The notes under the pieces were generated by a model. It had not been told where the DNA came from and searched no databases. It saw nothing but the letters and a program-made list of their open reading frames with translations. Shown here piece by piece: positions 1,687 to 32,473 of a stretch of 64,000 bases of DNA (within the stretch, counting starts at the first letter, position 1; the number at the start of each line of letters is the position of its first letter). The DNA is taken from contig NZ_JANAVO010000001.1 in the NCBI RefSeq assembly GCF_024213555.1, positions 1,674,001-1,738,000 on the forward strand. Direction: 5' to 3'. The position numbers and the translations under genes are program-made. Source of the stretch: Allokutzneria sp. A3M-2-11 16. Lineage in GTDB: Bacteria; Actinomycetota; Actinomycetes; Mycobacteriales; Pseudonocardiaceae.

Positions 1687-1724
1687 TTACCCATGGGTAA
1701 TATCCTGTTGTTACCGGCTAGTAG
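1687..1724. promoter_or_regulatory. Tandem YTAC-N6-GTAR operators upstream of fadE5
   Basis: TTACCCATGGGTAA (1687-1700) is a perfect 14-base palindrome. TTACCGGCTAGTAG (1711-1724) has the same TTAC-N6-GTAR outline. The same pattern occurs twice in the fadA2-fabG4 divergent promoter at 32444-32473, so a shared regulator, for example of the TetR type common in fatty-acid control, is inferred. The regulator itself is not identified in the window. Confidence 0.6.
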
Positions 1725-1770
1725 GGCGCGTCCCTCGGCCAGCAACCCGCGATGACCCGGGAGCAACGAG

Positions 1771-3603
1771 ATGGGCCACTACAAGAGCAACCTGCGCGAC
1801 CTCGAGTTCAACCTGTTCGAGGTGTTCAAGATCCAGCAGCGGCTGGGCAGCGGGCCGTTCGAACAGGCCGACGAGGACACTGCCCGCGGTGTGCTGACCG
1901 AGCTGAACACCCTGGCCACCGGGCCGCTGGCGGACTCCTTCGCCGACGCCGACCGCAACCCGCCGGTCTTCGACCCCAAGACGCACTCGGTGACGCTGCC
2001 CGAGAGCTTCAAGGCCTCCTACCAGATGCTCATGGACGGCGAGTGGTGGCGGCTCGGCGCGATCGACGAGCTCGGCGGCTTCGGCATCCCGGCCACCGTG
2101 CAGTGGGCCGCGGGCGAGCTGATCCTCGGCTCGAACCCGGCGCTGTTCATGTACATGGCCGGGGCCAGCTTCGCCTCCATCGCATACTCCAACGGCACGG
2201 ACGAGCAGAAGCACTGGGCGCAGCTGATGCTCGACCGCGGCTGGGGCGCCACGATGGTGCTGACCGAGCCGGACGCGGGCTCCGACGTGGGCGCGGGCCG
2301 CACCAAGGCCGTGCAGCAGGCGGACGGCACCTGGCACCTGGACGGCGTGAAGCGCTTCATCACCTCCGGCGACCAGGACATGACCGAGAACATCATGCAC
2401 CTGGTGCTGGCCCGCCCCGAGGGTCCCGGCATCGAGGCCAAGCCCGGCACCAAGGGCCTGAGCCTGTTCCTGGTGCCCAAGTTCCACTTCGACCCGAAGA
2501 CCGGCGCGCTCGGTGAGCGCAACGGCGCCTTCGTCACCAACATCGAGCACAAGATGGGCATCAAGGTGTCCACCACCTGCGAGCTGACCTTCGGCCAGCA
2601 CGGCGTGCCCGCCCAGGGCTGGCTGCTCGGCGAGGTGCACGACGGCATCGCGCAGATGTTCCAGGTGATCGAGCACGCGCGGATGATGGTCGGCACCAAG
2701 GCGATCGCCACGCTGTCCACCGGCTACCTGAACGCGCTGGAGTACGCCAAGGAGCGCGTGCAGGGCGCGGACCTGACGCAGATGCTGGACAAGGCCGCGC
2801 CCCGGGTCACCATCACCCACCACCCGGACGTGCGGCGCTCGCTGATGCTGCAGAAGTCCTACGCCGAGGGTCTGCGCGCGGTCTACCTCTACACCGCGTC
2901 CTTCCAGGACCAGATCCGCGCGGGCGAGAACGTGGAGCTGGCCAACCGGGTCAACGACCTGCTGCTGCCGATCGTCAAGGGCGTCGGTTCGGAGCGGGCC
3001 TACGAGATGCTGACGCACTCGCTGCAGACGCTCGGCGGCTCCGGATTCCTCCAGGACTACCCGATCGAGCAGTACATCCGCGACGCCAAGATCGACAGCC
3101 TGTACGAGGGCACCACGGCCATCCAGTCGCTGGACTTCTTCTTCCGCAAGATCGTCCGCGACAAGGGCCAGGCGCTGGGCTTCCTGGCCAACGAGATCCA
3201 GCAGTTCATCGCCAACGAGAACGGCAACGGCAGGCTCAAGGAAGAGCGCGCGCTGCTCAAGCAGGCCCTTGAGGACGCGCAGGGCATGCTCGGCACGCTG
3301 ATCGGGTTCCTGACCTCCTCGCAGGAGGACCAGCGCAACCTGTACAAGGTCGGCCAGAACAGCGTCACCCTGCTGATGAGCATGGGTGACCTGCTGATCG
3401 GCTGGCTGCTGCTGAAGCAGGCCGACGTGGCGATCGCCGCGCTGGACTCCGGCCCGTCCGCGAAGGACCGCTCGTTCTACGAGGGCAAGGTCGCGGCCGC
3501 GGGCTTCTTCGCCAAGAACGTGCTGCCGGAGCTGTCCTCGCGGCGCAAGATCGTCGAGAGCACGGACAACTCGCTGATGGAGATGGACGAAGCGGCGTTC
3601 TGA
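1771..3603 (+). CDS. fadE5: Acyl-CoA dehydrogenase, FadE5 type
   Basis: A 610-residue FAD-dependent dehydrogenase that forms the 2,3-double bond in acyl-CoAs, the first step of beta-oxidation. The whole protein reads like mycobacterial FadE5 (611 residues as I recall). It starts MGHYKSN-RD-FNLFEVF, carries the FAD/substrate segment [19 protein letters not shown] near residues 165-183, and has the catalytic glutamate in LYEGTTAIQ (E446). The last 130 residues are the extra C-terminal dehydrogenase domain of this long subfamily, ending MDEAAF. The ATG follows a GGGAGCAACGAG-type ribosome site. Upstream lie two operator-like palindromes and downstream a strong terminator, so it is monocistronic. 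The partner genes fadA2, fabG4 and htdX lie at 31-35 kb. Confidence 0.95.
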
Positions 3604-3632
3604 TCTCCCCACGATCCCGGTCGGGAAGAGAA

Positions 3633-3666
3633 GCGGCGGTGCCGGTGACGGCACCGCCGCTTTTTT
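3633..3666 (+). terminator. Rho-independent terminator of fadE5
   Basis: A perfect 11-base stem (GCGGCGGTGCC at 3633-3643 with its complement at 3650-3660) encloses a six-base loop and is followed by six T residues (3661-3666), 30 bases after the fadE5 stop. It is the clearest canonical terminator in the window. Confidence 0.95.
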
Positions 3667-3776
3667 GCTGCGCCAAATAACAGTTCGGATCAAAGCAAAA
3701 GCATTGGCCTGCCGCGAAACAGGAATTAGCCTGCACTCTTCGTCGTCATTGGGGCTCATTGGAGCGAATTATTTCC

Positions 3777-4178
3777 ATGTCTACGTCATTTTCACGTTTC
3801 GCCGCGGCAGTGATCACCGGCGCCACCCTTCTCGCCCTCGGCGCGGTCGTTCCCGCGGCCCAGGCCGCCCCGGCAGGCCAGAAAGAATGCGCGAACAGCC
3901 ACAAGCCCGACAGCAAGATCAAGGTGTCCAGGGCCGACGCCGTCGTGGTCAGGCCGAAACCGGTCAAGAGCGAGGCAGGTGCCCTCGACCAGTTCCACCG
4001 GGGTGAAACCGTCACCACCGTGAAGGGTCATTGGGACGGCAAGAGATGCGTCAGCATGGTCGAGAACGGCCAAAATCAGGACGTGTGCGGCACGGGCGAT
4101 CCGACCCAGCGGTATTACGTGGTGTGGATCGGGCGCTACAAGCAGGTGGGTTACGTGCCCGCGGGTTGTTTCTGGTGA
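3777..4178 (+). CDS. Small secreted protein with four cysteines, function unknown
   Basis: The 133-residue product has an N-terminal signal peptide with a hydrophobic core (about residues 9-25) and an Ala-X-Ala cleavage site near AAQAAPA. The mature part of about 100 residues has four cysteines, in KEC, KRC, DVC and the terminal AGCFW, enough for two disulfides. I chose the ATG at 3777 over the in-frame TTG at 3759 because a GGAG lies 12 bases before it and it begins the signal peptide. The 110 bases upstream are noticeably richer in A+T than the surroundings, which suggests a promoter or acquired DNA. A bacterial SH3-like fold is possible but not shown. I do not recognise the family. Confidence 0.75.
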   Translation: MSTSFSRFAAAVITGATLLALGAVVPAAQAAPAGQKECANSHKPDSKIKVSRADAVVVRPKPVKSEAGALDQFHRGETVTTVKGHWDGKRCVSMVENGQNQDVCGTGDPTQRYYVVWIGRYKQVGYVPAGCFW

Positions 4179-4237
4179 CAGCCGTCGTTGGGTGATGCGA
4201 AAGGGCGGTACCCACGGGGTGCCGTCCTTTCGCCGTC

Positions 4238-5071
4238 TCAGGGCCTGCGGCAGCGGGCGTCGGCGAAGCAGTAGACCCCGAACGCCGCGAGCCCCAGAGC
4301 GACGGCGAGCAGGACGAAGACCCCGAAGGGCAGCGCGGCGAGCTCCCGCAGGGCCTGGTCCAACCCGCCCGCGCGGTTCGGATCGGCGGTGAAACCCGCC
4401 AACGCCAACAGGATTCCCACCACGGCGAAGGCGATCCCCTTGGCCGGGTAGCCGGTCATCCCGAGGCGCCGCGTCCAGGTCCGCGTGCCCGCGGGCAGCC
4501 TGGTCAGGTCGAGCTCTTCGAGGAAGGTCCGGCGCACGCCCTTGAGCACCGCGGCGACGCCGACACCGAACACCACGGCGGCGATCGCGGCGACGATCCA
4601 CGGCCCGCCCGGCAGCGCGAGCAGTTCCGCGGTGAGCGTTTTCTGGCTCTGGTCACCGGATTCCTGGCCCGCGCCGATCAGGAAGTTCACCGCGATGACG
4701 GCGAGCACGATGCCCGCCACCCCGCGCGCGGCCGAGGTGCTCCGCTTGATCGTGCGCTTGCGCTGGTCGGAGATCCAGCGATGGCCGAAGAAGGCGCTCA
4801 GCAGCTGCCAGACCGCGAACGCCGCGAGTCCCGCGGCGAGCGCGATGAGCAGCGCGACGCCCAGCGGCTGCGCGGCGATCGTGGCCAGCGCGCCCTTCTG
4901 GTCCGCCTCGGCCGGGCTGTCGCCGAGCGCGACCTGGACTGCCAGCCAGGCCACCACGAGGTGCACCAGGCCGAAGCAGGCCATGCCCACCCGGCCACCG
5001 ATCTCGACGGCTCGTTCCACCCAGAAGAGATGCACCTCGCGCCACAAGGTGAAACGGGCCGTTCGGAGCAA
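4238..5071 (-). CDS. DUF1206 family membrane protein
   Basis: A 277-residue integral membrane protein with three related hydrophobic modules, each opening with a glycine-rich helix (GRVGMACFGLVHLVVAWLAV near residue 26; a second near 110 and a third near 190). This is the layout of DUF1206, a broadly distributed actinobacterial family of unknown function. The start is uncertain. TTG at 5071 gives the usual 25 residues before the first module, but its GGGAGG lies inside the hairpin that terminates the upstream VanW gene; GTG codons at 5035 and 5020 are alternatives. It is transcribed in the same direction as the VanW gene. Confidence 0.8.
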   Translation of the reverse strand: MLRTARFTLWREVHLFWVERAVEIGGRVGMACFGLVHLVVAWLAVQVALGDSPAEADQKGALATIAAQPLGVALLIALAAGLAAFAVWQLLSAFFGHRWISDQRKRTIKRSTSAARGVAGIVLAVIAVNFLIGAGQESGDQSQKTLTAELLALPGGPWIVAAIAAVVFGVGVAAVLKGVRRTFLEELDLTRLPAGTRTWTRRLGMTGYPAKGIAFAVVGILLALAGFTADPNRAGGLDQALRELAALPFGVFVLLAVALGLAAFGVYCFADARCRRP

Positions 5072-5076
5072 AACGA

Positions 5077-5102
5077 AGGGGCCTCCCGACTGGAAGGCCC
5101 CT
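5077..5102 (-). terminator. Hairpin terminator of the VanW gene
   Basis: Inverted repeat AGGGGCCT/AGGCCCCT (5077-5084 and 5095-5102) lies 15 bases past the VanW-protein stop. Read on the minus strand it is followed by TTCGTTTTG, consistent with a factor-independent terminator. Its loop also supplies the only ribosome-site-like sequence for a TTG start of the next gene. Confidence 0.7.
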
Positions 5103-5116
5103 CGTCGTGCTCCGGC

Positions 5117-8100
5117 TCAGCCGCCCGCGGGCGGCGGGGCGCAGACGACCTTGTGCTGCGGGTTGTAGCGGACCGTCCGCTCCTCACGGCGCACGGTGCC
5201 GGTCGTGAGGTCCCTGATGGTCCTGGTGTCCTTCACGCTGAAGCCGCCCGCGCCGCCGCTCGCCGTGCAGGGCTGGCCGTGCGGGATCTCCTTGACCTGC
5301 GGGGCGGTCTGGGCGAACGGCTCGCCGGTCTGACCGGTGACCTCGTAGGTCTTGGTGCCCCACATCTTCACGGTGATCGACGAGGGCGTCCAGACCGTTT
5401 GGATCAGGATGCCGGTCTTGCTGTCGTTCTTGAACTTCACGTCGATCACGCTGCTGCCGTTGGGGTTCTGGAAGACCGTGGCCTCCCGGCCCTTCGGGTA
5501 GCGCGAGATGTAGAAGCTGTGCTCCTTGTGCGCCACGTCCACCATGCCCGCGTGGTACGACGCGTTGTAGAGCGTGGTCGCCATCTGCGAGACACCGCCG
5601 CCGACCGCGCGGCTCAGCTCGCCCTTCTCGATGATCGCGGCCTCGACGTAGCCGGTCGCCGCGGTGCGCGGACCGGTGCGGCCGTTCATGCTGAAGGTCT
5701 CGCCCGGCTTCACGATCGCGCCGTTGATCTGCTCGGCCGCCCGCCTGATGTTGCGGCCGGAGTCCGCGGCGAAGCCCTTGGTGTCGAACTCCGCGACGAG
5801 CTGCTTGATGCCGAGCGCGTTGGCCTGCTCGGTGGTCAGCTTCGCGGGCAACTGCGAGTAGGTGGCCTTGATCTGCCGGTCCTGCGGCTTGCGCAGCACC
5901 TCCAGCGCGCCCGCGAGGGTCTTCTCCCAGTCGACGCCCCGGCCGTCGGTCGACGGCTTGACCACCGGCTTGCCGCCCTCGATGACGATCTCGGCGTCCT
6001 TGCCGGGCTTGTCGGTCGACGCCAGCTGCGGCCGGGCGACCTCGGCGATCTTCGGCACGTCCAGCGAGGCGGTCAGGCCGCCCTTGCCGTCGGACTCGAA
6101 GCGCATCGCGTTGCCGATCGCGACCGGCTGCACGATGGCGTTGCCGCCCTCGCCGAGCACGGTCAGCGGGCCGGACACCGCGGGCTTGGCGATCTCTTCG
6201 AGCGCCTTGCGCACGCCCTCCGGGGTGGACGTGACGGGCTCGGCGATCGCGGGCAGCTGCACCCGGCGGCCGCTCGGCCAGTCCGACTTGAGCACCGGGA
6301 CCGCGCCAGCGGCGTCGAGCTTCTGGCCGGGCTTCGGGTCGATCGGCTTGGGCTTGCCGTCGGTGAACTCGATCGTGCCCTCGGCGGGCAGGCGGTCGGT
6401 CACCTCGCGCAGGTGCTCCAGCGCGCCGGTGACCTTGCCCTCCTCCGCCGCGGTGACCACACCGAGCTCGGTGGTGGTGAAGAAGGACGCGATCCTGGTG
6501 AACGGGTTGTAGGACTGCTCGCCCGCCTGGTCCAGGGTGCCCTTCCAGTTCATCGTCAGCCCGGCCTCCTGCGGGGAGATCTCGGTGTCGACGTCACCGA
6601 CCCGCAGCGCCACCGGCTTGCCCAGCCTCGGCTCGATCTGCTCGCGCAGCTTGCGCTCGGCCGAGGTCCGGTCCAGCCCGCCGACGTCCACGCCCGCCAC
6701 GGTGATCCCGCGCGGCACGTTGCCCTGGGTGAGCAGGAGGTCGCCGACGTAGAGCACACCGAGCAGGCCCACCACGGAGGCCGCGGCGAGCAGGATCTTC
6801 CTGCCGCGCCCGGCGCGCTCGTCCCCGCCGTCGTCCTCCGGCAGCGGGTCGATCGCGTCGTCGACCGGTGGCGGCGTCGGGGGCGGAGGCGGCGTCGCCG
6901 GGGGCTTGGCGTTGAACACCGAGGTGGCCTTGGCCGGGGCCACGGTGGTGGTGGCGTCGATCTTGGGGATGCGCACGGTGTCCGAGGTGGGGTCGACCGG
7001 GCGGCCCGCGCCGAGCCCGCTCAGCGCCTCCGGGCGCACCGCCGTGGTCGCCTGGTCGATGCGGCTGGTGCTCTCGTCACCGACCGGGCGGACGAACGTG
7101 GTCGTCCGCTCTGGCTTCTGCGGGTCGCCGACCGGGCGCGCGAAGGTCGTGGCCTGCTCGGGGCGCGGGGTCTCGCCGGTCGAGCGCGAGAATGTCGTTG
7201 CCTGCTCAGGCTTCTGCGGATCGCCAACCGGCCGGGCGAACGTGGTCGGCTGCTCCGGGCGCGGGGTTTCACCGGTCGAACGGGTCGGCAGGTCGGGCTT
7301 CTGCGGGTCACCGACCGGGCGCGCGAACGTCGTGGCCTGCTCCGAACGCGGGGTCTCGCCCGTTGAACGCGAGAACGCCGTTGCCTGCTCGGGCTTCTGC
7401 GGATCACCGACCGGCCGGGCGAACGTCGTGGCCTGCTCGGGGCGCGGCGCGTCACCTGCGGAACGGGTCGGCAGGTCGGGCTTCTGCGGGTCACCGACCG
7501 GGCGCGCGAACGTGGTCGCCTGCTCCGGACGCGGCGCGTCACCGGTCGGACGGGTCGGCAGCTCGGGCTTCGGGTTCGGCTGCGTGTCGGCGACGGCGTA
7601 GGTGAACGGCGTTGGCTGCTCGGGCTTCTGGACCTCGCCAGCGGGGCGGGCCTCGTCATCCGAGCGCGCGGGCCCGGCCTCGGGCTTCGGTGCGGACGGG
7701 AGTTGTTGGAACACAACGGTTTCCGTCTGCTCCGCGACGTTCTGGAACAACGCGGCGCCGGAGACCGTCTCCTTCGAGGCGTCAGCGGGCTTCTGCTGCG
7801 CGGCCTCGGGCCGCGGCCGGTTGACCGGACCGCTGTCATGCCGCTGCGGCTGCTGCACCGGCGGCTGCTCGCGACGGACCGGACCGCTGTCGTGGCGCTG
7901 CTGCGGCTGCTCGCCCTGGAACTGGACGTTCCCCGGCTGCTGCTGGGACCACTGCTGACCCGGGTTCCGCGGCGGCTGCGGGGTCCTGGGCTGCGGACCG
8001 CTGTGGTGCACCGGCGGCTGACCGGGCGCGCCGAACGACGACGGCTGCTGCGGCTGCGGCGTGTTGTAGTGCACGCGAGGCATGCCGTCCGTCGGCGCGA

Positions 8101-8401
8101 TGCTCTGCGGCATGCGCGGTTGCGGTCCGCTGCGGTGGACCTGAGGCGCGGGCACCTGGGGCTGCGGGGCCGGAGGTACGGGCGGCTGCGCGGCGGCCGG
8201 GGTCGCCGGGGTGTCCTTGGCGGGCTCGGGTGCCTCGGCCCCGAGCTTCGGCGCGGACATCCACTGGATGCGCTTGGTCGTCCGCTCGGCGCTCACGGGG
8301 CGCTGTTCCGGTCCCGCGGGGTCACCGCCAGCGGGTGTCGACGCAGCCGGTGATGAGTCGTGCTCCGGCTGCGGGTCGGGCCTCCCGTTGTCGTCCGACA
8401 C
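5117..8401 (-). CDS. VanW-domain cell-envelope protein with long disordered repeat N-terminus
   Basis: This 1094-residue protein has a Pro/Gln/Thr-rich cytoplasmic region (1-530), one transmembrane helix (about 535-557) and an extracytoplasmic part. Outside come peptidoglycan-binding-like modules (about 560-860), then a VanW domain with NGRTGPRTAATGYVEAAII, AVGGGVSQMATTLYNA and HSFYISRYPKGREATV, and a short C-terminal G5-like tail. Residues 284-443 are ten tandem copies of a 13- or 16-residue unit. VanW proteins are tied to glycopeptide-resistance and cell-wall loci, but their biochemical role is unsettled. The GTG start is preceded by GGAGGAGG. A GroES-like gene lies 74 bases upstream on the same strand. 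A structural or wall-anchoring role is inferred. Confidence 0.88.
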   Translation of the reverse strand: MSDDNGRPDPQPEHDSSPAASTPAGGDPAGPEQRPVSAERTTKRIQWMSAPKLGAEAPEPAKDTPATPAAAQPPVPPAPQPQVPAPQVHRSGPQPRMPQSIAPTDGMPRVHYNTPQPQQPSSFGAPGQPPVHHSGPQPRTPQPPRNPGQQWSQQQPGNVQFQGEQPQQRHDSGPVRREQPPVQQPQRHDSGPVNRPRPEAAQQKPADASKETVSGAALFQNVAEQTETVVFQQLPSAPKPEAGPARSDDEARPAGEVQKPEQPTPFTYAVADTQPNPKPELPTRPTGDAPRPEQATTFARPVGDPQKPDLPTRSAGDAPRPEQATTFARPVGDPQKPEQATAFSRSTGETPRSEQATTFARPVGDPQKPDLPTRSTGETPRPEQPTTFARPVGDPQKPEQATTFSRSTGETPRPEQATTFARPVGDPQKPERTTTFVRPVGDESTSRIDQATTAVRPEALSGLGAGRPVDPTSDTVRIPKIDATTTVAPAKATSVFNAKPPATPPPPPTPPPVDDAIDPLPEDDGGDERAGRGRKILLAAASVVGLLGVLYVGDLLLTQGNVPRGITVAGVDVGGLDRTSAERKLREQIEPRLGKPVALRVGDVDTEISPQEAGLTMNWKGTLDQAGEQSYNPFTRIASFFTTTELGVVTAAEEGKVTGALEHLREVTDRLPAEGTIEFTDGKPKPIDPKPGQKLDAAGAVPVLKSDWPSGRRVQLPAIAEPVTSTPEGVRKALEEIAKPAVSGPLTVLGEGGNAIVQPVAIGNAMRFESDGKGGLTASLDVPKIAEVARPQLASTDKPGKDAEIVIEGGKPVVKPSTDGRGVDWEKTLAGALEVLRKPQDRQIKATYSQLPAKLTTEQANALGIKQLVAEFDTKGFAADSGRNIRRAAEQINGAIVKPGETFSMNGRTGPRTAATGYVEAAIIEKGELSRAVGGGVSQMATTLYNASYHAGMVDVAHKEHSFYISRYPKGREATVFQNPNGSSVIDVKFKNDSKTGILIQTVWTPSSITVKMWGTKTYEVTGQTGEPFAQTAPQVKEIPHGQPCTASGGAGGFSVKDTRTIRDLTTGTVRREERTVRYNPQHKVVCAPPPAGG
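7073..7552 (-). repeat. Coding tandem repeats in the VanW protein
   Basis: About ten in-frame units encode alternating RPVGDPQKPEQATTFA-like and RSTGETPRPEQATTFA-like peptides of 16 residues; two shortened versions (RPVGDPQKPDLPT) have 13. The units are close in DNA as well as in protein, indicating recent amplification. The predicted peptide is disordered and threonine/proline-rich. Confidence 0.9.
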
Positions 8402-8475
8402 CGCGTTCCCTCCTCCAAGTGCGCTCGGGATGCACGCGCCGGCCTAGCGGCCGACGAAGACTCCGAGAACACGAA

Positions 8476-8796
8476 TCACAGATACAGACCCGTACCGTGC
8501 TCGGTCCGCTCGCTGGCGACCGCGTGCAGGTCGCGCTCGCGCATCACGAGGTATGCCTCGCCCTGTACTTCGACCTCGAACTGGTCCTCGTGGTTGAACA
8601 ACACGCGGTCACCGACCTTGACGGTCCTGACGTGGTTGCCCACCCCGAACACCTCGCCCCACGACAAGCGCTTCGCGACCTGGGCGGTGGCCGGGATGAC
8701 GATCCCGCCGCCGCTCCGCCGCTCTCCGGCCTCCCGCACGACTTTCACCATGACGCGATCGTGCAGAAGCTGGATTTCGAGCTTGGCATCGGGCAC
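8476..8796 (-). CDS. GroES-family (Cpn10-like) protein
   Basis: The 106-residue product has the co-chaperonin-10 fold signature: LLHDRVMVKV at the first strand, a mobile-loop region ERRSGGGIVIPATAQ (about 25-39), VGDRVLFNHEDQFEVEVQGEAYLVM in the second half and the RERDL turn near the end. Length fits Cpn10 (about 95-105). No groEL neighbour or CIRCE operator is visible, so this is a solitary paralogue, not the main groESL operon. GTG at 8796 gives MPDAKLEIQ. It may be cotranscribed with the VanW-domain gene 74 bases downstream. Its binding partner is unknown. Confidence 0.8.
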   Translation of the reverse strand: MPDAKLEIQLLHDRVMVKVVREAGERRSGGGIVIPATAQVAKRLSWGEVFGVGNHVRTVKVGDRVLFNHEDQFEVEVQGEAYLVMRERDLHAVASERTEHGTGLYL

Positions 8797-8904
8797 CAGC
8801 GGAGTTTACTTGGCGCGCTGGGGCGAGCTACCACGGATACCGGTCACACACCAGACCTTCGTTGCGGTGTAACGCGCGAAGACCGCGCCGACGGGTGACG
8901 CGGA

Positions 8905-10764: not shown

Positions 10765-10851
10765 CGCGGGAGGGGGCTCTGTTCCTCGTCCCAAGATGCG
10801 GGCGCGAGCTAGTTGGCCCTACATGGGCCATTCCCGCCCCCGTTGTGGCCC

Positions 10852-11229: not shown

Positions 11230-11233
11230 GGCC

Positions 11234-12012: not shown

Positions 12013-12056
12013 GCTTCACAAGGTACCTGTGATCGCAACGTACTGCCAGTCCGGAA

Positions 12057-12084: not shown

Positions 12085-12190
12085 GCGCCGAAGCCTGGTT
12101 ACGATGCATGCGCATTACAAAGACACGGGTGATCGCAGGGGTCTGGACCGAGGGGGTCGGACTCACCTGGGGGACGATTCACCCAACCCC

Positions 12191-12223: not shown

Positions 12224-12235
12224 CGGTTTCGCAGG

Positions 12236-23015: not shown

Positions 23016-23051
23016 TGTGGTGGGGCGACGGTGCCGCCCCACCACGTTCGA

Positions 23052-23423: not shown

Positions 23424-23529
23424 TGGTTTCCCCGAGCTGTGAGTGTCCTTTGTGGAGATAGACGGACAAGGTAGGAGCCCGGTTCCACCGCTTGCTAAAC
23501 GCTCGCTAAACGGCACTGGCCCCGCAGAT

Positions 23530-25014: not shown

Positions 25015-25511
25015 GTGGCATCACCCGGAACGACCTCGGCGGCCTCACCGATGCGCCGGGCCAGCTCGTCGGCGTCGGCTGCCGCGAGCCCGGCGATCTT
25101 CACGTCGCCGTGGGTCGAAGCCGTCGTCACCACGACGGTGGCCAGGCCGAACGAGCGCTGGATCGGCCCCTGGGTGGTGTCGACGGTCTGCACTCGGGAC
25201 AACGGCGTCACGCGGTGCTTCTGCCAGAACCACCCGGACGCGGCGTAGACGGCCTTCGAGCCCAGCTCCCACGCGTGCACGCGGTACCGCCACGGCGGCA
25301 TGACCAGGGCGTACAGCAGCGCGGGCAGCACGAGCACCGCGACGAGCAGCGGGCCGAGCCACACCAGTGCCTTCGGGAAGAACAGCAGGGACAACACGAA
25401 CATCGTCAACGCGACCAGCAGCATCGGCCCCGCGAGCGACACCCACGCCTGCGCGCTCCACCAGCGGCGGGCGCGCGGATCGACTCGGTTGACCGGCGGT
25501 CTCAGGTTCAC
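25011..25511 (-). CDS. Bacterial PH-domain membrane protein, YdbS type
   Basis: A 166-residue protein with two transmembrane helices (about 24-44 and 51-71) followed by one bPH_2 domain (WRYRVHAWELGSKAVYAASG, VTPLSRVQTVDTTQGPIQRS and a VVVTTASTHGDVKIAGLA strand pair). It is the first gene of a two-gene operon with the YdbT-like protein; the GTGA overlap couples them. GTG at 25511 has GGGGGAG upstream. The 78-base gap to the divergent TetR gene carries repeated AAGTC boxes. Its function is not established in any well-studied organism. Confidence 0.85.
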   Translation of the reverse strand: MNLRPPVNRVDPRARRWWSAQAWVSLAGPMLLVALTMFVLSLLFFPKALVWLGPLLVAVLVLPALLYALVMPPWRYRVHAWELGSKAVYAASGWFWQKHRVTPLSRVQTVDTTQGPIQRSFGLATVVVTTASTHGDVKIAGLAAADADELARRIGEAAEVVPGDAT

Positions 25512-25531
25512 GGCGGACTCCCCCTCGTTTC

Positions 25532-25573
25532 AAGTCGACCGTATTAAGTCAGCTGTAATAAGTCAAACGACTT
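25532..25573. promoter_or_regulatory. AAGTC boxes in the PH-protein/TetR divergent promoter
   Basis: AAGTC occurs at 25532, 25546 and 25560 (period 14), and the last faces a GACTT at 25569 to form AAGTC-AAAC-GACTT. TATTA and TAATA also flank 25542-25560. The block is A+T-rich and sits between divergent starts at 25511 and 25590, so it is a candidate TetR operator serving both genes. Confidence 0.55.
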
Positions 25574-25589
25574 GCTATAGGCTGACCCG

Positions 25590-26204
25590 GTGCCGAAGCA
25601 GGTGGACCACGAGGAGCGGCGCGCGGCGATCGTCAGCGCGCTCTGGAAGCTGGCCGGGGAGCGGGGCCTGGACCGGGTGAGCCTGCGGGACACCGCGCGC
25701 GCGGCCGGGATGTCGCTCGGGCAGCTCCAGCACTACTTCGCCACCCGCGAGGACATGCTGGTCTCCGCCATGGACTTCATCAGTGAGCGGGTCACCGAGC
25801 GGGTCACCGCCAGGGTCGCGGCGCTGGACGAGCGGACGCCGGAGGCGATCCTGCGGATGTGCGTCGCCGAGATGCTGCCGCTGGACGACCGCAAGCGGCA
25901 GGGCAGCCGGATCAACATCAGCTTCTACGTCGAGGCGCTGGACAACGAACGGCTGCTCGCGCACTCGCGCCAGGGCTCAACGAAACTGCTGGACTTCTTC
26001 GAGCACCAGCTGCGCGAGGCGCGGGACCGCCGCGAGATCCCGGCAGACCGGGACCCGCGGCGGGAGGGCATGCTCATCATGAGCGTGGTCGACGGCCTGA
26101 CCAGCTACTACCACCTGGGCCTGCACACCGCCGAGGAAGCGTTGGCGATGGCGACGCACCACCTGGACACCCTGTTCGGCGCCGCACACGAAACGAAACG
26201 TTAG
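25590..26204 (+). CDS. TetR-family transcriptional regulator
   Basis: A 204-residue TetR-type repressor. The N-terminal helix-turn-helix covers about residues 12-52: AALWKLAGERGLDRVSLRDT is approximated by IVSALWKLAGERGLDRVSLR, then DTARAAGMSLGQLQHYFATRE. The C-terminal domain is all helical and includes MSVVDGLTSYYHLGLH, as in TetR_C_6-like members. GTG at 25590 gives MPKQVDHEERR. It is divergent from the YdbS-YdbT pair, with repeated boxes between them, so it probably controls both itself and that operon. Its stop overlaps the convergent XRE gene by 4 bases. The ligand is unknown. Confidence 0.9.
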   Translation: MPKQVDHEERRAAIVSALWKLAGERGLDRVSLRDTARAAGMSLGQLQHYFATREDMLVSAMDFISERVTERVTARVAALDERTPEAILRMCVAEMLPLDDRKRQGSRINISFYVEALDNERLLAHSRQGSTKLLDFFEHQLREARDRREIPADRDPRREGMLIMSVVDGLTSYYHLGLHTAEEALAMATHHLDTLFGAAHETKR

Positions 26205-26443
26205 TCGGCGCCGATGCGGGGGAACGGGGCGAGCGAGAAGACGACCTCCAGCGGCACCTCGAAGTGCTCGGCGATCCGCAGCGCCAGGTGCAGGCTGGGG
26301 CTGTACTCGCCGCGCTCCAGGTAGCCGACCGTCTGGTAGTGCACGCCGAGCGCCTCGGCGAGCTGGCGGCGCGAGATGCCCCGTTCCGCGCGGAGCATCG
26401 CGATGCGGTTGTGGATCGTCTCCGACCCCGTGCCCTCACCCAA
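26201..26443 (-). CDS. Small XRE-family regulator
   Basis: A short Cro/C1-type regulator, nearly all helix-turn-helix: IHNRIAMLRAERGISRRQLA, EALGVHYQTVGYLERGEYSP and SLHLALRIAEHFEVPLEVVF. The start is doubtful. TTG at 26443 includes the full first helix and overlaps the end of the permease gene by 8 bases; ATG at 26398 would cut the first helix. It is the last gene of the ABC exporter operon, an arrangement common for this YozG/YgzD-like subfamily, and probably regulates it. Its stop overlaps the convergent TetR gene. Confidence 0.8.
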   Translation of the reverse strand: MGEGTGSETIHNRIAMLRAERGISRRQLAEALGVHYQTVGYLERGEYSPSLHLALRIAEHFEVPLEVVFSLAPFPRIGAD

Positions 26444-27284
26444 TGGACTGCATCGCCTTCCTCTTCCTGGCCTCAACGGACGAGCCGGACTCGCGCCTGG
26501 CCATCCGGCGCAGCACGATCGGCGCGAGCAGGAGCCCGACCACCGCCCAGGCGCCGAGCACGCCGAAAGTCTCCAGGTGCCGCCAGGACTGGCCGACCTC
26601 CACCCCGGCCATCCCCTCGGGCAGCAGTGCCGAGCGGGTGCCCAGCCCGAGCCAGTAGACCGGGAAGACCTGGGCGAGGCCCTGCATCCACTCCGGCATC
26701 TGGGACAGCGGGTAGAAGATGCCGGACGAGCCCGCGACGGCCATCACCGGGAGCATCACCACGCCGACGCTGCGCGAGTTGCTGACCAGCGAACCGAGGA
26801 TCGCGCCAACCGGCAGCGTCGCCAGCAGCCCGAGCGCGACCACCCAGACCAGGGTGAGTCCGGAGCCCGCTCCGCTGATCCCGACCCCGTCGAGCAGCAC
26901 CGTGGCCGCGCCCAGCTGGACGGTCACGGAGATGACCGTCGTCCCGGAGATCAGCACGGTCTTGCCGACCAGGTAGCCGACCATGCCGTTGGGCGTGGAC
27001 TTGGCCCGCAGCAGCGTTCCGTCCTCGCGCTCCACGGTCAGCAGCTGCGCCAGGTTGACCAGACCGGTGACCGCGATGCTCATGCCGACGATGCTGGGCA
27101 GCATCAACTCGCCGACCGAGAACGTGCCCGCGATCTTGGCGTCGCGGACGAAGAACAGGACCACCGTGAAGACCACGACGGGGAAGAAGTAGCCCAGCAG
27201 GTCCTGCGGGGTCGTCAGGCTCTGCCGGAGCTCGATGCCGCCCCTGCGCAGCCCGAGCCGCACGGCGTTCCAGGTCGGGTTCAT
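26436..27284 (-). CDS. ABC-2 type transporter permease
   Basis: A 282-residue membrane protein with six predicted helices in the ABC-2 pattern. The cytoplasmic N-terminus is followed by LLGYFFPVVVFTVVLFFV, a conserved VEREDGTLLRAKSTPNGMVG loop, and then four helices including IFYPLSQMPEWMQGLAQVFP, a typical ABC-2 signature. It pairs with the ATP-binding gene just upstream (4-base overlap). Such pairs export antibiotics, peptides or lipids. With the ATPase frameshifted (see below), function of the pair is in doubt. ATG at 27284 begins MNPTWNAV. Confidence 0.9.
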   Translation of the reverse strand: MNPTWNAVRLGLRRGGIELRQSLTTPQDLLGYFFPVVVFTVVLFFVRDAKIAGTFSVGELMLPSIVGMSIAVTGLVNLAQLLTVEREDGTLLRAKSTPNGMVGYLVGKTVLISGTTVISVTVQLGAATVLLDGVGISGAGSGLTLVWVVALGLLATLPVGAILGSLVSNSRSVGVVMLPVMAVAGSSGIFYPLSQMPEWMQGLAQVFPVYWLGLGTRSALLPEGMAGVEVGQSWRHLETFGVLGAWAVVGLLLAPIVLRRMARRESGSSVEARKRKAMQSIG

Positions 27285-28205
27285 CGCGCTCCCTCCACGA
27301 ACTGACTGGCGGCGGCCACGACGCCACCGGATTCGGCTTCCCTGACCAGGGCCATGTAGGTGTCCTCCAGCGTGGCGCGGCGGACCTCCAGGTCGGCGAC
27401 GTCGTCACCGTGCTGGGCGAAGAGGTCGCGGACGAAGGGCGTCGACTCCGTGGTGGAGTGCACGAAACGCTGCCCGCGGACGGTCCAGCGGACCTCGGCC
27501 GAGGTCGCCATCCGCGCGGCGAGCGCGTCGGCGGAGCCGTTGGCGATGATCTGCCCGCCCGCCAGGATCACGATGCGGTCGGCCAGTTTCTCGGCCTCGT
27601 CCAGGTCGTGCGTGGTGAGCAGGACGGTCGTCTCGTCATCGGCGATCCGGTGCACCAGGTCGTGGAACTCGCGTCGGGCGGCCGGGTCGAAACCGACCGT
27701 CGGCTCGTCGAGGAACAGCAGGTCCGGGCGCCCCACCATGCCGATCGCCACGTCCAGCCTGCGGCGCTGGCCACCGGAGAGCTTGGAGATCCGCGTGTTC
27801 GCCTGCGGACCGAGCCCCCACCGACTCGATCAGCTCTTCACCGCGCCACGGCGCCCGCTTCCGCTCCTCGGCGTACGGGAGGTAGTAGTCGCCCAGATGC
27901 GCGAGCAGCTCGCGGACGCGCCACTTCGCGTGGTCCCGCCAGGATTGGAGAACGACGCCGAGCCCGGCCCGCCACCGCTCGTCGCCGTGCGCCGGATCGA
28001 CGCCCAGCACCGAGACCTCGCCGTCGGAGCGCATCCGGAAGCCTTCGAGGATCTCGATCGTGGTGGTCTTGCCCGCCCCGTTGGGCCCGAGCAGCGCCAG
28101 CACCTCGCCGCGCTGCGCCTGGAGGTCGATCCCGCGCAGCACGTCGTTCGTCCCGTACCTCATCCACAGGTCCCGGACCTCGATCACGGTTCCCCAACCC
28201 GTCAT
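27281..28205 (-). pseudogene. ABC transporter ATP-binding protein, single-base frameshift
   Basis: The coding sequence is complete except for one extra base. From ATG at 28205 the frame gives VIEVRDLWMRYG, the Walker A GPNGAGKT (40-47) and EELIESVG (about 123-130). Then five C residues at 27815-27819, where four are expected, shift the frame. In the next frame the protein continues LGPQANTRISKLSGGQRRR, DLLFLDEPTVGFDP (Walker B), LTTHDLDEA and a normal C-terminus to 27281. Removing one base gives exactly 307 residues. This is either a sequencing error in a homopolymer, a recent mutation or phase variation. It partners the ABC-2 permease downstream and would energise drug or peptide export. Confidence 0.88.
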
Positions 28206-28240
28206 GAACCTCCCCCTTCTTGTCGAACTACTGCTAGCGA

Positions 28241-28260
28241 ATGTAGCAAATGTACTACAT
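28241..28260. promoter_or_regulatory. Inverted repeat in the ABC/epimerase intergenic region
   Basis: ATGTAG (28241-28246) and CTACAT (28255-28260) are exact complements separated by eight bases, 36-55 bases before the ABC ATPase start and 40-59 before the epimerase start. GTAG-N8-CTAC spacing suits a GntR or similar dimer, but the XRE protein of the operon is also a candidate. An A+T-rich stretch surrounds it. Confidence 0.5.
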
Positions 28261-28299
28261 CCGACGGCAAAATCGGGGCGGCCGTGTTCGGATGGGGCC

Positions 28300-29259
28300 A
28301 TGCGAGTGGTCGTACTCGGCGGGACCGAGTTCATCGGCAGGCGCATCGTCGAGGAGCTGGTCGCTCGCGGCGACGACGTCCTCGTCGTGCACCGGGGCCG
28401 GACCGAGCCGCGGAACTGGGTCGCCTGCGAGCACCTGCACGCCGACCGGGCGGACTTCGGCACGGTCGCGGCGGACGTGCGCGCGTTCCGGCCGGACGCG
28501 GTGATCGACACCATCGCGCTGAGCCGGGGCGACGTGGACGCGGTGCTGCCGCACCTACCCGACGCGCAGCTCGTCGTGCTGTCCAGCATGGACGTGTACC
28601 GCGCGTTCGAGCTGTTCAAAGCCGGGGCGAGCGGGGAGCCGACGCCGCTGCGCGAGGAGAGCGCGCTGCGCGTCGGCCGCTTTCCCTACCGGGGCCAGGG
28701 CCTCGGCCTCGACGACTACGACAAGCTCGACGTCGAGCCCGCCTACCTGGAACGCGGCGGGGCGGTGCTCCGGCTGGCCGTGGTCTACGGGGAGCACGAT
28801 CCGCAGCACCGGGAGGAGTTCGTCCTGCGGCGGGTCCGGGCGCAGCGCGAGCGGATCCCCATCGGGCCCGGCAACTGGCTGTGGACCCGCTGCTACGTCG
28901 GAGAGGTCGCCAGGGCCGTGCTCGCCGCACTCGGGAACGCCCGCGCGCAGGGCGAGATCTTCAACATCGGTGAGCAGCACACGCACGACTTCGGCACCTG
29001 GACCAGGCAGATCCTGGCCGCTGCCGGGCACGAGGCGGAACTCGTCGAGGTGCCCGGCGACCTGGTCCCCGCCGACCTGGTGTTCACCAAGGCGCACGCG
29101 CAGCACCTGCTCTTCGACAGCTCGAAGGCGCACGACCTGCTCGGGTGGCGACCCGCACCGGTGGAGTTCGGCATCGAGCGGTCGGTGCGCTGGCACCTGG
29201 AGAACCCGCCCGTCGAGCCCGGCGCCGACTTCGGCGAGGACGACCGGGCGCTGGCCTAG
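28300..29259 (+). CDS. NAD-dependent epimerase/dehydratase-like protein
   Basis: A 319-residue extended short-chain dehydrogenase/reductase. The Rossmann glycine motif VVLGGTEFIGRR (4-15) binds NAD(P), and DDYDKLDVEPAYL contains the Y-x-x-x-D/K region, here YDKLD, which differs from the canonical YxxxK. Further conserved segments are LRLAVVYGEHDPQHREEF and IFNIGEQHTHDF. The atypical catalytic segment suggests a sugar-nucleotide or NADP-binding role with altered chemistry. ATG at 28300 follows GGATGGGG. It is divergent from the ABC operon and followed by a hairpin, so it is probably monocistronic. Confidence 0.8.
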   Translation: MRVVVLGGTEFIGRRIVEELVARGDDVLVVHRGRTEPRNWVACEHLHADRADFGTVAADVRAFRPDAVIDTIALSRGDVDAVLPHLPDAQLVVLSSMDVYRAFELFKAGASGEPTPLREESALRVGRFPYRGQGLGLDDYDKLDVEPAYLERGGAVLRLAVVYGEHDPQHREEFVLRRVRAQRERIPIGPGNWLWTRCYVGEVARAVLAALGNARAQGEIFNIGEQHTHDFGTWTRQILAAAGHEAELVEVPGDLVPADLVFTKAHAQHLLFDSSKAHDLLGWRPAPVEFGIERSVRWHLENPPVEPGADFGEDDRALA

Positions 29260-29277
29260 CGCCTGCGGATATGGGAA

Positions 29278-29322
29278 ACCCCGCGGTGCTGCCAGGTCGG
29301 GGGTCCGACAGCATCGCGGGGT
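29278..29322 (+). terminator. Hairpin after the epimerase-like gene
   Basis: ACCCCGCGGTGCTG (29278-29291) and a complement with one mismatch (29309-29322) form a 14-base stem with a 17-base loop, 18 bases after the stop. There is no T run. It could terminate on either strand. Confidence 0.6.
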
Positions 29323-29435
29323 CATAGTGGTCATCGCTGGTGCGACCGACCTTGTTACACCCTACAGCCTATGTGATGCGGGTCACGTTTGGTGACCGGG
29401 TGAGACACGTGACGACGACAGATGAAACAGATGAA

Positions 29436-29472
29436 AGCGCCCCTGGGCGGCGGGAGGCCGCCCAGGGGCGCT
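29436..29472 (-). terminator. Terminator of the 48-residue conserved small gene
   Basis: A perfect 16-base stem (AGCGCCCCTGGGCGGC at 29436-29451, complement 29457-29472) with a 5-base loop. Read on the minus strand it is followed by TTTCATCTGTTT, which fits termination after the small gene at 29555-29701. The rest of 29323-29554 shows no gene. Confidence 0.8.
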
Positions 29473-29554
29473 GGTAACTCCGTTGGGCAGGACGGCGGGA
29501 GGGCCGCTCGAGCCGGCGGTCGAGGTCGCCGGCGAACGTCCGCCGTCCCCGGCC

Positions 29555-29701
29555 TCAGCGGAGGGTAGTCACCTGCTGGCTGGCAATGACCATGAGCTCG
29601 TGACGCAGGGCCGGGGTGGCCGCGCCGTCGATCGCGCGGTTCACGGCACGGCGAGTCCGGTTGTCGGCACGACGAGCACGCATCTTCGCGACGAGGTTCA
29701 T
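29555..29701 (-). CDS. Small basic protein, conserved in actinomycetes
   Basis: A 48-residue (or 52-residue) basic helical protein: MNLVAKMRARRADNRTRRAV, then NRAIDGAATPALRHELMVIA. This reads like a short actinobacterial family I have met repeatedly with no assigned function (Arg-rich helix, then AIDGAATPA and a hydrophobic helix). The ATG at 29701 lies 12 bases after AAGGGG; ATG at 29713 directly abuts that site and is an alternative. It stands alone, followed by a strong terminator, suggesting separate and perhaps high expression. Nucleic-acid or membrane contact is possible; no function is known. Confidence 0.65.
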   Translation of the reverse strand: MNLVAKMRARRADNRTRRAVNRAIDGAATPALRHELMVIASQQVTTLR

Positions 29702-29864
29702 CTGAGTTCGCATCCCCTTGGAAGTCTGTGTCGGAGTGACAAGACAAGTATGCACCAGATACCCCGGTTGTGCACCCGATTGTCCGGTGAGATGCCTCAC
29801 CAGCCGGACAAGTAACGGCGTGTTCCCGGTTACGGCCGGATGTTTGCCAGAGAAACGGGAAGCA

Positions 29865-30371
29865 TCAGAGGTGCCGCCGGTAGCGCACGAAGCTCGGGCA
29901 GTCGGCCCGCCGCGCCATCTCGTCCAGCCACCAGCCGCGCGCGGCGAAGAAGGACCGCGCCCTGGCGTTGTGCTCCCAGACCCACAGGGTGAGGTAGCCG
30001 AAGGAGACCCGGAGCCTGCTCACCGCCGCGCGCAGCAGCTCCCCGCCGACGCCCCGGCGCCAGCTCGGCGGGGCAACGTAGAGCGAGTACAGCTCGCCGA
30101 CCCCGGCCGGATCGGCGTCCGGGTCGTGGCTCGGGCCCGCCGCGGTGAACCCGACCAGCCTGCCGTCCAGCTCGGCGCACAGCAGGGCCTGGTCCGGCGA
30201 GTAGAGGAACCCCTCGATCACGTCCCGGCGCCGCGCGGCCTGTTCGGGGTCGACCAGCACCCGCTCGTCGACGTGGCCGCGGTAGTAGGAGGCGCGGGCC
30301 CTGGTGTGGATCTCCGAGAGGTCGTCGAGGTCAGCGAGATCGGCAGCCCGGATCCGCAGGTCTTCGCTCAT
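29865..30371 (-). CDS. GNAT-family N-acetyltransferase
   Basis: A 168-residue acetyltransferase with GNAT motifs: LRIRAADLADLDDLSEIHTR at the N-terminus, GELYSLYVAPPSWRRGVGGE with the acetyl-CoA-binding R-R-G-V-G-G loop, and FFAARGWWLDEMARRADCPS in the last part. ATG at 30371 starts MSEDLR. The intergenic region to the divergent SIMPL gene is about 120 bases. It is not clearly linked to an operon. The acceptor is unknown. Confidence 0.87.
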   Translation of the reverse strand: MSEDLRIRAADLADLDDLSEIHTRARASYYRGHVDERVLVDPEQAARRRDVIEGFLYSPDQALLCAELDGRLVGFTAAGPSHDPDADPAGVGELYSLYVAPPSWRRGVGGELLRAAVSRLRVSFGYLTLWVWEHNARARSFFAARGWWLDEMARRADCPSFVRYRRHL

Positions 30372-30490
30372 GCAGTGGAGGACGCGCGAGCGGACTCCCG
30401 GTGGCCCGCAAGCGATTTCTCGCACAGTTGCGGTCAAACCCTCAAGTTCCCTCGTTGCGGATGCGGCCATTCGCGGGGAGTGTGGGTGGC

Positions 30491-31105
30491 GTGGCTGAAG
30501 TAGTGACCAAAGGGACCGGAGAAGTCGAACGCATCGCCGACCGCGCGCAGCTGTGGGTCTCCTACAGCGCGAACGGGGCCGATCGCACCGCTGCGGTGAA
30601 CGAGCTGACCTCGCGGATCTCGCGGGTCGAGCCGTTGCTGGACCGCGAGGGCGTCGAGGTCCGTTCACGGCGGCTTTCGGTGCACACCAACTGGGAGAAC
30701 GGGCATCGGGTCGGCTCCGGGGCGGAGCAGTACTACTCGGTGCGGGTCACCGACCGGGAACAGCTGGACGAGCTGCTCGGCGCGCTGATCGCGGCGGAGC
30801 CCGCGTGGCTCAACGGACCGGACTGGGAGTTGTCGGACCGGTCCGAGGCCGTCGCCGACGCCCAGCACCACGCGGTCGAGGACGCGCGGCGCCGGGCGCA
30901 GGGCTACGCGGCGGCGCTGGGCGTGCGGCTCGGCCCACTGCTGCGGATCACCGACGGGGACGAGTCGCACGGTGGCGGCGTCGAGCGGATGGCTTACGCG
31001 GCGACCGCGGCGTCCTACGCGCCGGACACGCGTGAGCTGAAGCTGGAACCGCAGCCGGTGACCGTCTCCGTCCGCTGCACCACCACCTGGGTGCTGCTGG
31101 AGTGA
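30491..31105 (+). CDS. SIMPL (DUF541) domain protein
   Basis: A 204-residue protein consisting of a single SIMPL domain: VTKGTGEVERIADRAQLWVS at the N-terminus, ELTSRISRVEPLLDREGVEV in the middle and a C-terminal pair of beta strands ending CTTTWVLLE. SIMPL proteins have been linked to kinase-associated signalling or oxidative stress but are poorly understood; most are exported, whereas this one has no signal peptide. GTG at 30491 follows GGAG by ten bases; other GTG codons lie close by. It abuts the convergent fadA2 gene with no spacer. Confidence 0.78.
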   Translation: MAEVVTKGTGEVERIADRAQLWVSYSANGADRTAAVNELTSRISRVEPLLDREGVEVRSRRLSVHTNWENGHRVGSGAEQYYSVRVTDREQLDELLGALIAAEPAWLNGPDWELSDRSEAVADAQHHAVEDARRRAQGYAAALGVRLGPLLRITDGDESHGGGVERMAYAATAASYAPDTRELKLEPQPVTVSVRCTTTWVLLE

Positions 31106-32401
31106 TCAGCGTTCCAGGATCGCCGTGACGCCCTGACCGCCCGCTGCGCAGATGGAGATCAGACCGCGGCCGGACCCCTTCTCCGCCAGCAGTTTCGCCA
31201 GGGTGGCCACGATCCGCCCGCCGGTGGCGGCGAAGGGGTGGCCCGCGGCCAGCGAGGAGCCGTTGACGTTCAGCTTGGCCCGGTCGATCCGGCCGAGCGG
31301 GGCGTCGAGGCCGAGCTTCTCCTTGCAGTAGCCCGGGTCCTCCCACGCCTTGAGGGTGGACAGGACCTGCGACGCGAACGCCTCGTGGATCTCGTAGAAG
31401 TCGAAGTCGCCGAGGTCGAGCCCGGCCCGCGCGAGCATCCTGGGCACGGCGTAGGTCGGCGCCATCAGCAGGCCCTCGCCGCCGTGCACGAAGTCCACCG
31501 CCGCCGTCTCGCAGTGGGTGAAGTGCGCCAGCACCGGCAGCCGGTGCCGCTCGGCCCATTCCTCGCTGGCCAGCAGCACGGTGGAAGCTCCGTCGGAAAG
31601 CGGCGTGGAGTTTCCGGCCGTCATCGTCGCGGAATCGCGGAACTCCTTGGACTTCGTGCCGAACACCGGCTTCAGCTTGGCGAGTTTGTCCACTGTGGAG
31701 TCAGGGCGCAGGTTCTGGTCGCGGGTCAGGCCGAGGAACGGCGTCAGCAGGTCGTCGAAGAACCCGCACTCGTAGGCGACGGCCAGCTTGCGGTGGCTGG
31801 CAGCGGCCAGCTCGTCCTGCTCCTGCCGCTCGATCTCCCACTCCTTGGCGGTGATCGCCGCGTGCTCGCCCATGGACAGGCCGGTGCGCGGTTCACCGTT
31901 GCGCGGGAGGTCAGGGACGACGTGGCTCGGCCGCAGCTTCGGCAGCAGCTTCAGCCGGGCGCCGATGCCCTTGGCGGAGTTGAACTTCAGCAACAGCCTG
32001 CGCAGGTCCTCGTTCACCCCGATCGGCGCGTCGCTGGTGGTGTCGACCCCACCGGCGATCCCGGCGTCGATCTGGCCGAGCGCGATCTTGTTGGCGACCA
32101 GGATGACGGCCTCGAGGCCGGTGCCGCACGCCTGCTGGACGTCGTAGGCCGGGGTCTGCGGGGAGAGCCTGCTGCCGAGCACGCTCTCCCTGGTCAGGTT
32201 GAAGTCCCGGCTGTGCTTGAGCACGGCGCCCGCGACCACCTCGCCGAGCCGCTCGCCCTGCAACCCGAACCGCCCGACCAGACCGTCCAGCGCGGCGGTG
32301 AGCATGTCCTGGTTCGATGCGGATGCGTAGGGGCCGTTGGATCTCGCGAACGGGATCCGGTTTCCCCCGATGATCGCGACGCGGCGTGTGGTCTCGGCCA
32401 T
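31106..32401 (-). CDS. fadA2: Acetyl-CoA acyltransferase (thiolase), FadA2 type
   Basis: A 431-residue thiolase that cleaves 3-ketoacyl-CoA with CoA, or condenses acetyl-CoA units. The nucleophilic cysteine lies in QQACGTG (C92), the GHPFAATGGR segment carries the catalytic histidine, and the general-base cysteine is in ICAAGGQG near residue 418. The sequence matches mycobacterial FadA2 closely in many stretches (GGNRIPFARS, SNQDMLTAAL, LSMGEHAAITAKEW). It diverges from fabG4-htdX, and two operator copies lie between them, so the four lipid genes are probably co-controlled with fadE5. ATG at 32401 follows AGGGG. Confidence 0.93.
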   Translation of the reverse strand: MAETTRRVAIIGGNRIPFARSNGPYASASNQDMLTAALDGLVGRFGLQGERLGEVVAGAVLKHSRDFNLTRESVLGSRLSPQTPAYDVQQACGTGLEAVILVANKIALGQIDAGIAGGVDTTSDAPIGVNEDLRRLLLKFNSAKGIGARLKLLPKLRPSHVVPDLPRNGEPRTGLSMGEHAAITAKEWEIERQEQDELAAASHRKLAVAYECGFFDDLLTPFLGLTRDQNLRPDSTVDKLAKLKPVFGTKSKEFRDSATMTAGNSTPLSDGASTVLLASEEWAERHRLPVLAHFTHCETAAVDFVHGGEGLLMAPTYAVPRMLARAGLDLGDFDFYEIHEAFASQVLSTLKAWEDPGYCKEKLGLDAPLGRIDRAKLNVNGSSLAAGHPFAATGGRIVATLAKLLAEKGSGRGLISICAAGGQGVTAILER

Positions 32402-32443
32402 GTGCCCCTCCAGCGGTTACGGGGATACCCTTTCGAGCATAAC

Positions 32444-32473
32444 CTACCGATGAGTAGTCTTACTGATGAGTAG
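32444..32473. promoter_or_regulatory. Two YTAC-N6-GTAR operators in the fadA2/fabG4 promoter
   Basis: CTACCGATGAGTAG (32444-32457) and TTACTGATGAGTAG (32460-32473), period 16, lie between the divergent fadA2 (start 32401) and fabG4 (start 32484). The second ends within the fabG4 ribosome-site region. The pattern equals the pair upstream of fadE5 at 1687-1724. A single TetR-type regulator of both loci is inferred. Confidence 0.65.

Follow-up and report, generated by a model that had tools for sequence, protein, structure and literature searches.

The DNA studied here, a 64,000-nucleotide stretch of the 8.81-Mb genome of Allokutzneria sp. A3M-2-11 16 (G000:C11:1674001-1738000, hereafter the window), carries four palindromic sites of the form YTAC-N6-GTAR, two before a fadE5-type acyl-CoA dehydrogenase gene and two between the genes fadA2 and fabG4. 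All four look like genuine operators, their role as control sites being predicted, and they probably split into two sister operators, one at fadE5 and one at fadA2/fabG4. The reading that we favour, with some reserve, is that the TetR-family protein TetR46, encoded outside the window, would control fadA2/fabG4, and that the fadE5 pair would be a separate, class-wide operator most likely read by a FasR-like TetR. The names fadE5, fadA2, fabG4 and htdX, like the Rv numbers used below, are labels that we presume to apply.

The fadE5 operator comprises an upstream site, TTACCCATGGGTAA (1687-1700), and a downstream site, TTACCGGCTAGTAG (1711-1724), both exact pattern matches, which are found 70 and 46 bp upstream of the start of fadE5 (1771-3603, plus strand) and are offset by 24 bp. 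The fadA2/fabG4 operator is a tandem with a 16-bp offset: its first site, CTACCGATGAGTAG (32444-32457), stands 42 bp before fadA2 and 26 bp before fabG4, and its second, TTACTGATGAGTAG (32460-32473), 58 and 10 bp before them, fadA2 (31106-32401, minus strand) being read from 32401 and fabG4 (32484-33821) on the plus strand. An initial annotation of this DNA had located all four sites exactly and had held the pattern to be unexpected by chance, rightly so, since the window contains five matches against a mean of 0.23 and a maximum of two in 100 dinucleotide shuffles. Its further idea that the pattern is confined to these two promoters does not hold, the genome having 47 sites of a refined form, many of them at beta-oxidation genes.

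TetR46 and the fadA2/fabG4 tandem

TetR46 is encoded at G000:C11:1754253-1754924 (window-equivalent about 80253-80924), 16 kb beyond the end of the window. It belongs to the TetR family by its PF00440 TetR_N (62.6 bits, cut-off 24) and PF21943 TetR_C_46 (76.4 bits, cut-off 27) domains. Its best named match among the matches listed comes from Kutzneria viridogrisea (69%), the genera of the best named matches being, we take it, Pseudonocardiaceae. A second tandem with the 16-bp offset is located between the TetR46 gene and an SCP2-domain gene, at C11:1754181-1754210.

The link between this gene and the fadA2/fabG4 sites comes from 61 genomes of the window's order. TetR46 was found in 21 of them at E<=1e-40 and, in more divergent form, in G007 and G043 (23/61); no search at a laxer threshold was made in genomes that gave no match at this one. 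fabG4 was found in 34 genomes, and its promoter was readable in 33, G033 with its fabG4 fragment being left out. A site is present in 22/22 fabG4 promoters of genomes with TetR46 versus 0/11 of those without (Fisher p 5e-9, an overstated value because the genomes, all of one order, are related). The 22 include G021, G060 and G043, whose sites precede the start of the match by 205, 199 and 112 bp; a 16-bp pair occurs in six and a single site in 16. As for the entire 30-bp composite, two sites at offset 16, it was detected at 19 places in 14 of the 61 genomes, 18 of these places being a TetR46 or a fabG4 promoter.

The promoter of TetR46 itself carries a site at 16 of 21 loci in the order, with at least two sites in 13 (offset 16 in 12, offset 15 in one). 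Among named loci, which are the best 80 of a larger set and include low-identity paralogues, fabG4 was found near TetR46 in 48, each time with a site (48/48), and the TetR46 promoter had a site in 53/80, at the 16-bp offset in 17. The sole 16-bp tandem elsewhere in the order genomes, G043:C12:8331-8360 (L234), lies between genes that appear PE-like by eye.

Gene order was compared in ten neighbourhoods: fadA2 adjoins fabG4 and the MaoC gene then follows behind fabG4, with TetR46 inside eight of the ten stretches; the G021 copy sits just beyond its stretch, and G048 gave no match at E<=1e-40. We call TetR46 Rv0238-type for its neighbourhood with fadA2/fabG4, found in 20 relatives and in eight of the ten stretches, together with an operator common to the promoters of TetR46 and fabG4. 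It resembles Rv0238 in gene context, as mycobacterium-like genomes have fadA2, fabG4 and the MaoC gene in synteny with it, but the mycobacterium-like copies are only about 37-44% identical to the TetR46 of the window genome. In those genomes the neighbouring genes are presumably those labelled lpqI and aftD.

The distance between TetR46 and fabG4, 0.8-8.4 kb in 20 other genomes, reaches 46 kb in the window genome, where it is TetR46 that did move. As for fadE5 and fabG4, they are 31-49 kb apart in G027, G037, G046 and G055 and on different contigs in G014; since such a distance is common in the family, the separation of about 30 kb in the window is not recent. The initial annotation had given fadE5, fadA2 and fabG4 as neighbours in mycobacteria, and they do lie within a few kb of one another in three stretches read as mycobacterial (L235-L237).

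According to these data, TetR46 would read the 16-bp-offset tandem at fadA2/fabG4, and would probably control itself and the divergent SCP2-domain gene via the like tandem before them. Tandem dimers over divergent promoters are a usual mode of TetR repression; here, two TetR46 dimers bound side by side would turn off both fadA2 and fabG4(-htdX). An acyl-CoA ligand could then release TetR46 and lift this repression, a step suggested by FasR (Rv3208), the TetR-type activator of fas-acpS in mycobacteria, which leaves DNA on binding long acyl-CoAs (PMC7382501). Another work counts Rv0238 as one of five TetRs conserved in every mycobacterium that it analysed; its motif table, as shown, lists Rv3208 (FasR) but not Rv0238 (PMC4482099). 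Searches of the open-licence PMC literature showed neither a named target or operator of Rv0238, nor a description of the present operator, nor the pairing of an Rv0238-type TetR with a fadA2/fabG4 operator.

The fadE5 pair and its candidate reader

fadE5 was found in 58 of the 61 order genomes. All 57 readable promoters (a contig end truncates that of G013) contain a TAC-N6-GTA site, and in 47 there are two, mostly 22-27 bp apart, with two pairs at 31-32; the 24-bp offset is kept in all six genomes of the window's family examined. A draw of 118 genomes from the class gave fadE5 in 92, of which 84 are outside the window's order. Among these 84, 63 promoters were examined and all have a site, 55 having two, 20-28 bp apart (the G164 sites at -203/-176, beyond the first 160 bp, are counted). 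Both draws together thus give 120 readable fadE5 promoters, all with a site and 102 with two, and the sites are, as the initial annotation implied, kept at orthologous loci in relatives, for fadE5 as for fabG4 accompanied by TetR46. One match was found in control sequence taken 300-600 bp upstream at the 63 class loci, four of which were later given corrected starts. Among the named loci, 16 of 17 fadE5 promoters show a strict site, L325 being the one without.

Genomes in which both TetR46 and a fabG4 site went undetected also keep the fadE5 sites, at offsets of 20-32 bp. Judged by the sequences compared, the fadE5 pair is class-wide and older than the fadA2/fabG4 tandem. With its offset mostly of about 24-25 bp, it would serve a wider beta-oxidation regulon, its reader being a regulator that the class has in common. 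A class-wide fadE5 operator, in every promoter examined, was not found in searches of the open-licence PMC literature; a 2017 paper says of Streptomyces-type bacteria that signals regulating their fatty-acid catabolism had not been described (PMC5539140).

Seven second copies of fadE5-like genes were counted apart as paralogues, and (C/T)TAC(C/T)N4(A/G)GTA(A/G) was not found at any of these seven. Four of them (L221-L224, in four family f8 genomes) share another palindrome, TACGGTTGCGTA.

As for the protein, our best guess, held a little better than even, is that the likeliest fadE5 reader is the FasR-like TetR encoded at L025. It has a match in 60/61 order genomes (E<=1e-30). In the class draw, with an orthologue threshold of E<=1e-45, it was found in 89/92 genomes with fadE5 versus 12/26 without (Fisher p 9e-9, six of the 26 being assigned by elimination). 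Its own promoter holds a site at 18 of 56 loci and control stretches hold none; these are the best-matching loci, scanned over 220 bp before re-anchored starts, and an earlier count made before re-anchoring gave 10/30 within 500 bp. We infer orthology for L025, which we call FasR-like, from the much lower score of the next match.

TetR46 and the FasR-like protein are themselves alike. Both have TetR_C_46 (32 bits in the latter) and a nearly identical recognition helix, containing SKP and, three residues further, a Tyr, although their rows are 27-31% identical and TetR46, at 98.5 bits against a cut-off of 330, falls short of the FasR equivalog NF053731. A likeness exists also at the DNA level: the oligo of the FasR crystal, by our own reading of it in print, contains TAC(C/T) half-sites, with a perfect TAC-N6-GTA and a second copy that deviates at a single position (PMC7382501).

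One regulator or several

Both operators share the half-site (C/T)TAC(C/T)NR, and position 5 is T in 89% of cases at fabG4, 63% at TetR46 and 46% at fadE5. When sites were scored with their family left out, 91% of 102 fadE5, 61% of 28 fabG4 and 73% of 30 TetR46 sites fell into their own class; a clean sequence classifier for two operator classes was given up, the classes overlapping. Within genomes, fabG4 sites are nearer to TetR46-promoter sites than fadE5 sites are in 18 of 22 cases, two being equal and two reversed (Wilcoxon p 9e-4, not corrected for the kinship of genomes). Nine mycobacterial loci have a site at both genes: at fadE5 it is TTACTGGTGGGTAA in 9/9, and at fabG4 TTACTCTGGAGTAA in five, TTACTCTGAAGTAA in three and TTACTCAGGAGTAA in one.

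Several observations weigh against the assignment of TetR46 to fadA2/fabG4 and of the FasR-like protein to fadE5. The two fabG4 sites of the window score slightly fadE5-like (-1.76 and -0.81), and site sequence alone separates the operator classes poorly. TetR46 has no site in its own promoter at 5/21 order loci and at 27/80 named loci, many of the latter being mycobacterial or low-identity paralogues. L025 covers nearly the whole NCBIfam FasR model (NF053731) with 294 bits, below the 330 cut-off, and in G010, G110, G124 and G125 fadE5 sites are kept although no FasR-like orthologue was detected. Finally, the published FasR target is fas-acpS and its action there is activation, and the sites in the FasR oligo are 13 bp apart (PMC7382501) versus 24 at fadE5 and 16 at fabG4.

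The near-identical recognition helices and the common half-site would fit overlapping regulons, in which TetR46 and the FasR-like protein compete at both loci and spacing only tunes affinity. Such competition is unlikely in our opinion: the fabG4 site is missing from the 11 genomes without TetR46 although the FasR-like gene is present there, and the mycobacterial loci with both sites keep constant but different sequences at the two genes. Alternatively, TetR46 could act at fadA2/fabG4 and fadE5 could be read by a class-wide regulator other than the FasR-like protein. The four genomes just cited and the 38 of 56 FasR-like promoters without a site point in this direction, but several of these genomes are fragmented assemblies, and among the 47 sites of the window genome only TetR46 and a MarR gene appear as further candidates with a site of their own. 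We consider this second alternative quite improbable. The MarR gene, adjoining a perfect site (L022), was rejected as a candidate, its orthologous promoters having a site in 1/30.

A single regulon, TetR46 alone binding the four sites and commonly controlling fadE5 and fadA2/fabG4, could be defended on the strong overlap of half-sites and on the scores, by which the fabG4 sites of the window form no separate class. It seems very unlikely to us, considering that fadE5 sites are kept where TetR46 was not found, that the spacing of the two pairs differs and that resemblance within genomes groups fabG4 with TetR46. The initial annotation had proposed that the operator kept the separated loci together as one regulon; operators do persist at the separated loci, but a single common regulator is not supported. 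In a single genome, two paralogous regulons can be merged under one degenerate motif; spacing and presence across genomes then separate them. As to a chance effect of composition, short AT-containing palindromes lying between the genes of a GC-rich genome, the loose pattern does barely exceed its control genome-wide, but the excess over shuffles in the window, the single match in the class control stretches and above all the conservation of place and spacing refute it, and its probability is negligible.

The assignment of TetR46 to fadA2/fabG4, with a distinct reader at fadE5, joins TetR-type lipid regulators with palindromic operators that are already known as a kind. MadR (Rv0472c), the mycolic acid desaturase regulator, also belongs to the TetR family and links acyl-CoA to control of lipid genes; as a reader it was discarded, its consensus TCTGTGxxxxxxxGT fitting, by reading, none of the four sites (PMC8872791). 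Named proteins and exact sites are now open to experiment. The window itself, as initially annotated, contains no matching regulator: the sole TetR found there (25590-26204) was set aside, having a BetI-type C-terminal domain and no pattern match nearby.

The site across the genome and adjoining features

Genome-wide, the loose pattern YTACN6GTAR is hardly enriched, with 70 places versus 56 for a control, and the refined YTACYN4RGTAR occurs at 47 places versus 12; the control is the pattern read backwards, imperfect in that it contains ATG/CAT. In three relatives YTACYNRYNRGTAR gave 35 against 2 for the control in G014, 10 against 3 in G048 and, with a weak margin, 30 against 15 in G055. The intergenic count suggested by the initial annotation puts 42 of the 47 refined sites outside predicted genes, and five overlap a gene start or end, genes having been predicted with a simple codon-usage finder (predicted coding, 0.877 of the window). 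Adjacent genes encode thiolases, enoyl-CoA hydratases, crotonyl-CoA carboxylase/reductase (Ccr), an ETF-domain protein (ETF beta by eye), acyl-CoA dehydrogenases and an Fe-S/CCG protein, and many others are unrelated to lipids.

Site-adjacent genes were compared with those of two other genera, for all 35 refined places of G014 and 20 of the 30 of G055, matches at 29-35% identity (L032, L050; L027 in G055) being left out. Orthologue-like genes with a site in both the window genome and G014 are fadE5, fadA2/fabG4, two thiolases (L019, L027), Ccr (L023), the ETF protein with a methyltransferase (L020), the FasR-like gene with a divergent hydrolase (L025), the Fe-S/CCG protein (L030), SCP2/TetR46 (L031), a DUF4442 protein (L034), pyruvate dehydrogenase E1 with DUF3052 (L039) and a luciferase-like protein (L049). 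Those common with G055 are fadE5, fadA2/fabG4, the L019 thiolase, the ETF protein, Ccr with its divergent neighbour, the Fe-S/CCG protein, SCP2/TetR46, pyruvate dehydrogenase E1/DUF3052 and the L037 gene (54%). A site at the divergent pyruvate dehydrogenase E1/DUF3052 promoter (L039:3904-4187) recurs in three of the family's genera.

We advance, tentatively and with less than even confidence, a broader proposal taken as a whole: the fadE5 two-site operator might be the core of a class-wide (Actinomycetes) FasR-type, acyl-CoA-sensing beta-oxidation regulon, with thiolases, ETF, an EtfD-like Fe-S protein, crotonyl-CoA carboxylase/reductase, aceE and the FasR-like gene itself as members. Paralogues of its regulator, TetR46 and a desaturase-linked TetR, would use nearly the same half-site and distinguish their targets largely by the spacing of paired sites, of about 24, 16 and 15 bp.

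Two loci of the window genome display TACG-type tandem palindromes with a 15-bp offset. In L367 (G000:C11:1146452-1151480) the tandem lies upstream of a desaturase-like gene (membrane fatty-acid, by eye), behind which is a FasR-related TetR scoring 116 bits to the FasR model; in L366 (G000:C11:1079472-1084500) it precedes a hemolysin III family-like gene, by eye. These tandems possibly represent a third sister regulon.

The genes adjoining the four sites were assigned as follows. The fadE5 protein contains Pfam Acyl-CoA_dh_M, _1 and _C domains, from which its family was called, and reached no NCBIfam equivalog cut-off. fadA2 encodes a thiolase (NCBIfam PRK09268, 792 bits, cut-off 539) and fabG4 a 3-oxoacyl reductase (PRK08261, 698 bits, cut-off 410), whose start is likely the ATG at 32484 chosen by the gene finder, the listed open reading frame beginning at 32466. 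Located 3' of fabG4 on the same plus strand is a gene (33872-34663) for a MaoC-type dehydratase (Pfam MaoC_dehydratas), htdX-like, with synteny in relatives.

The fifth loose match of the window, CTACCGGAAAGTAG (62163-62176), lacks the purine-pyrimidine centre that the four operator sites have, and no recognised lipid gene was seen downstream of it. Elsewhere in the genome, CTACCGCAAGGTAA occurs at L040:4001 and L046:79 on opposite strands, each time 110 bp ahead of one of a pair of similar 374-aa genes, located on contigs C18 and C26.

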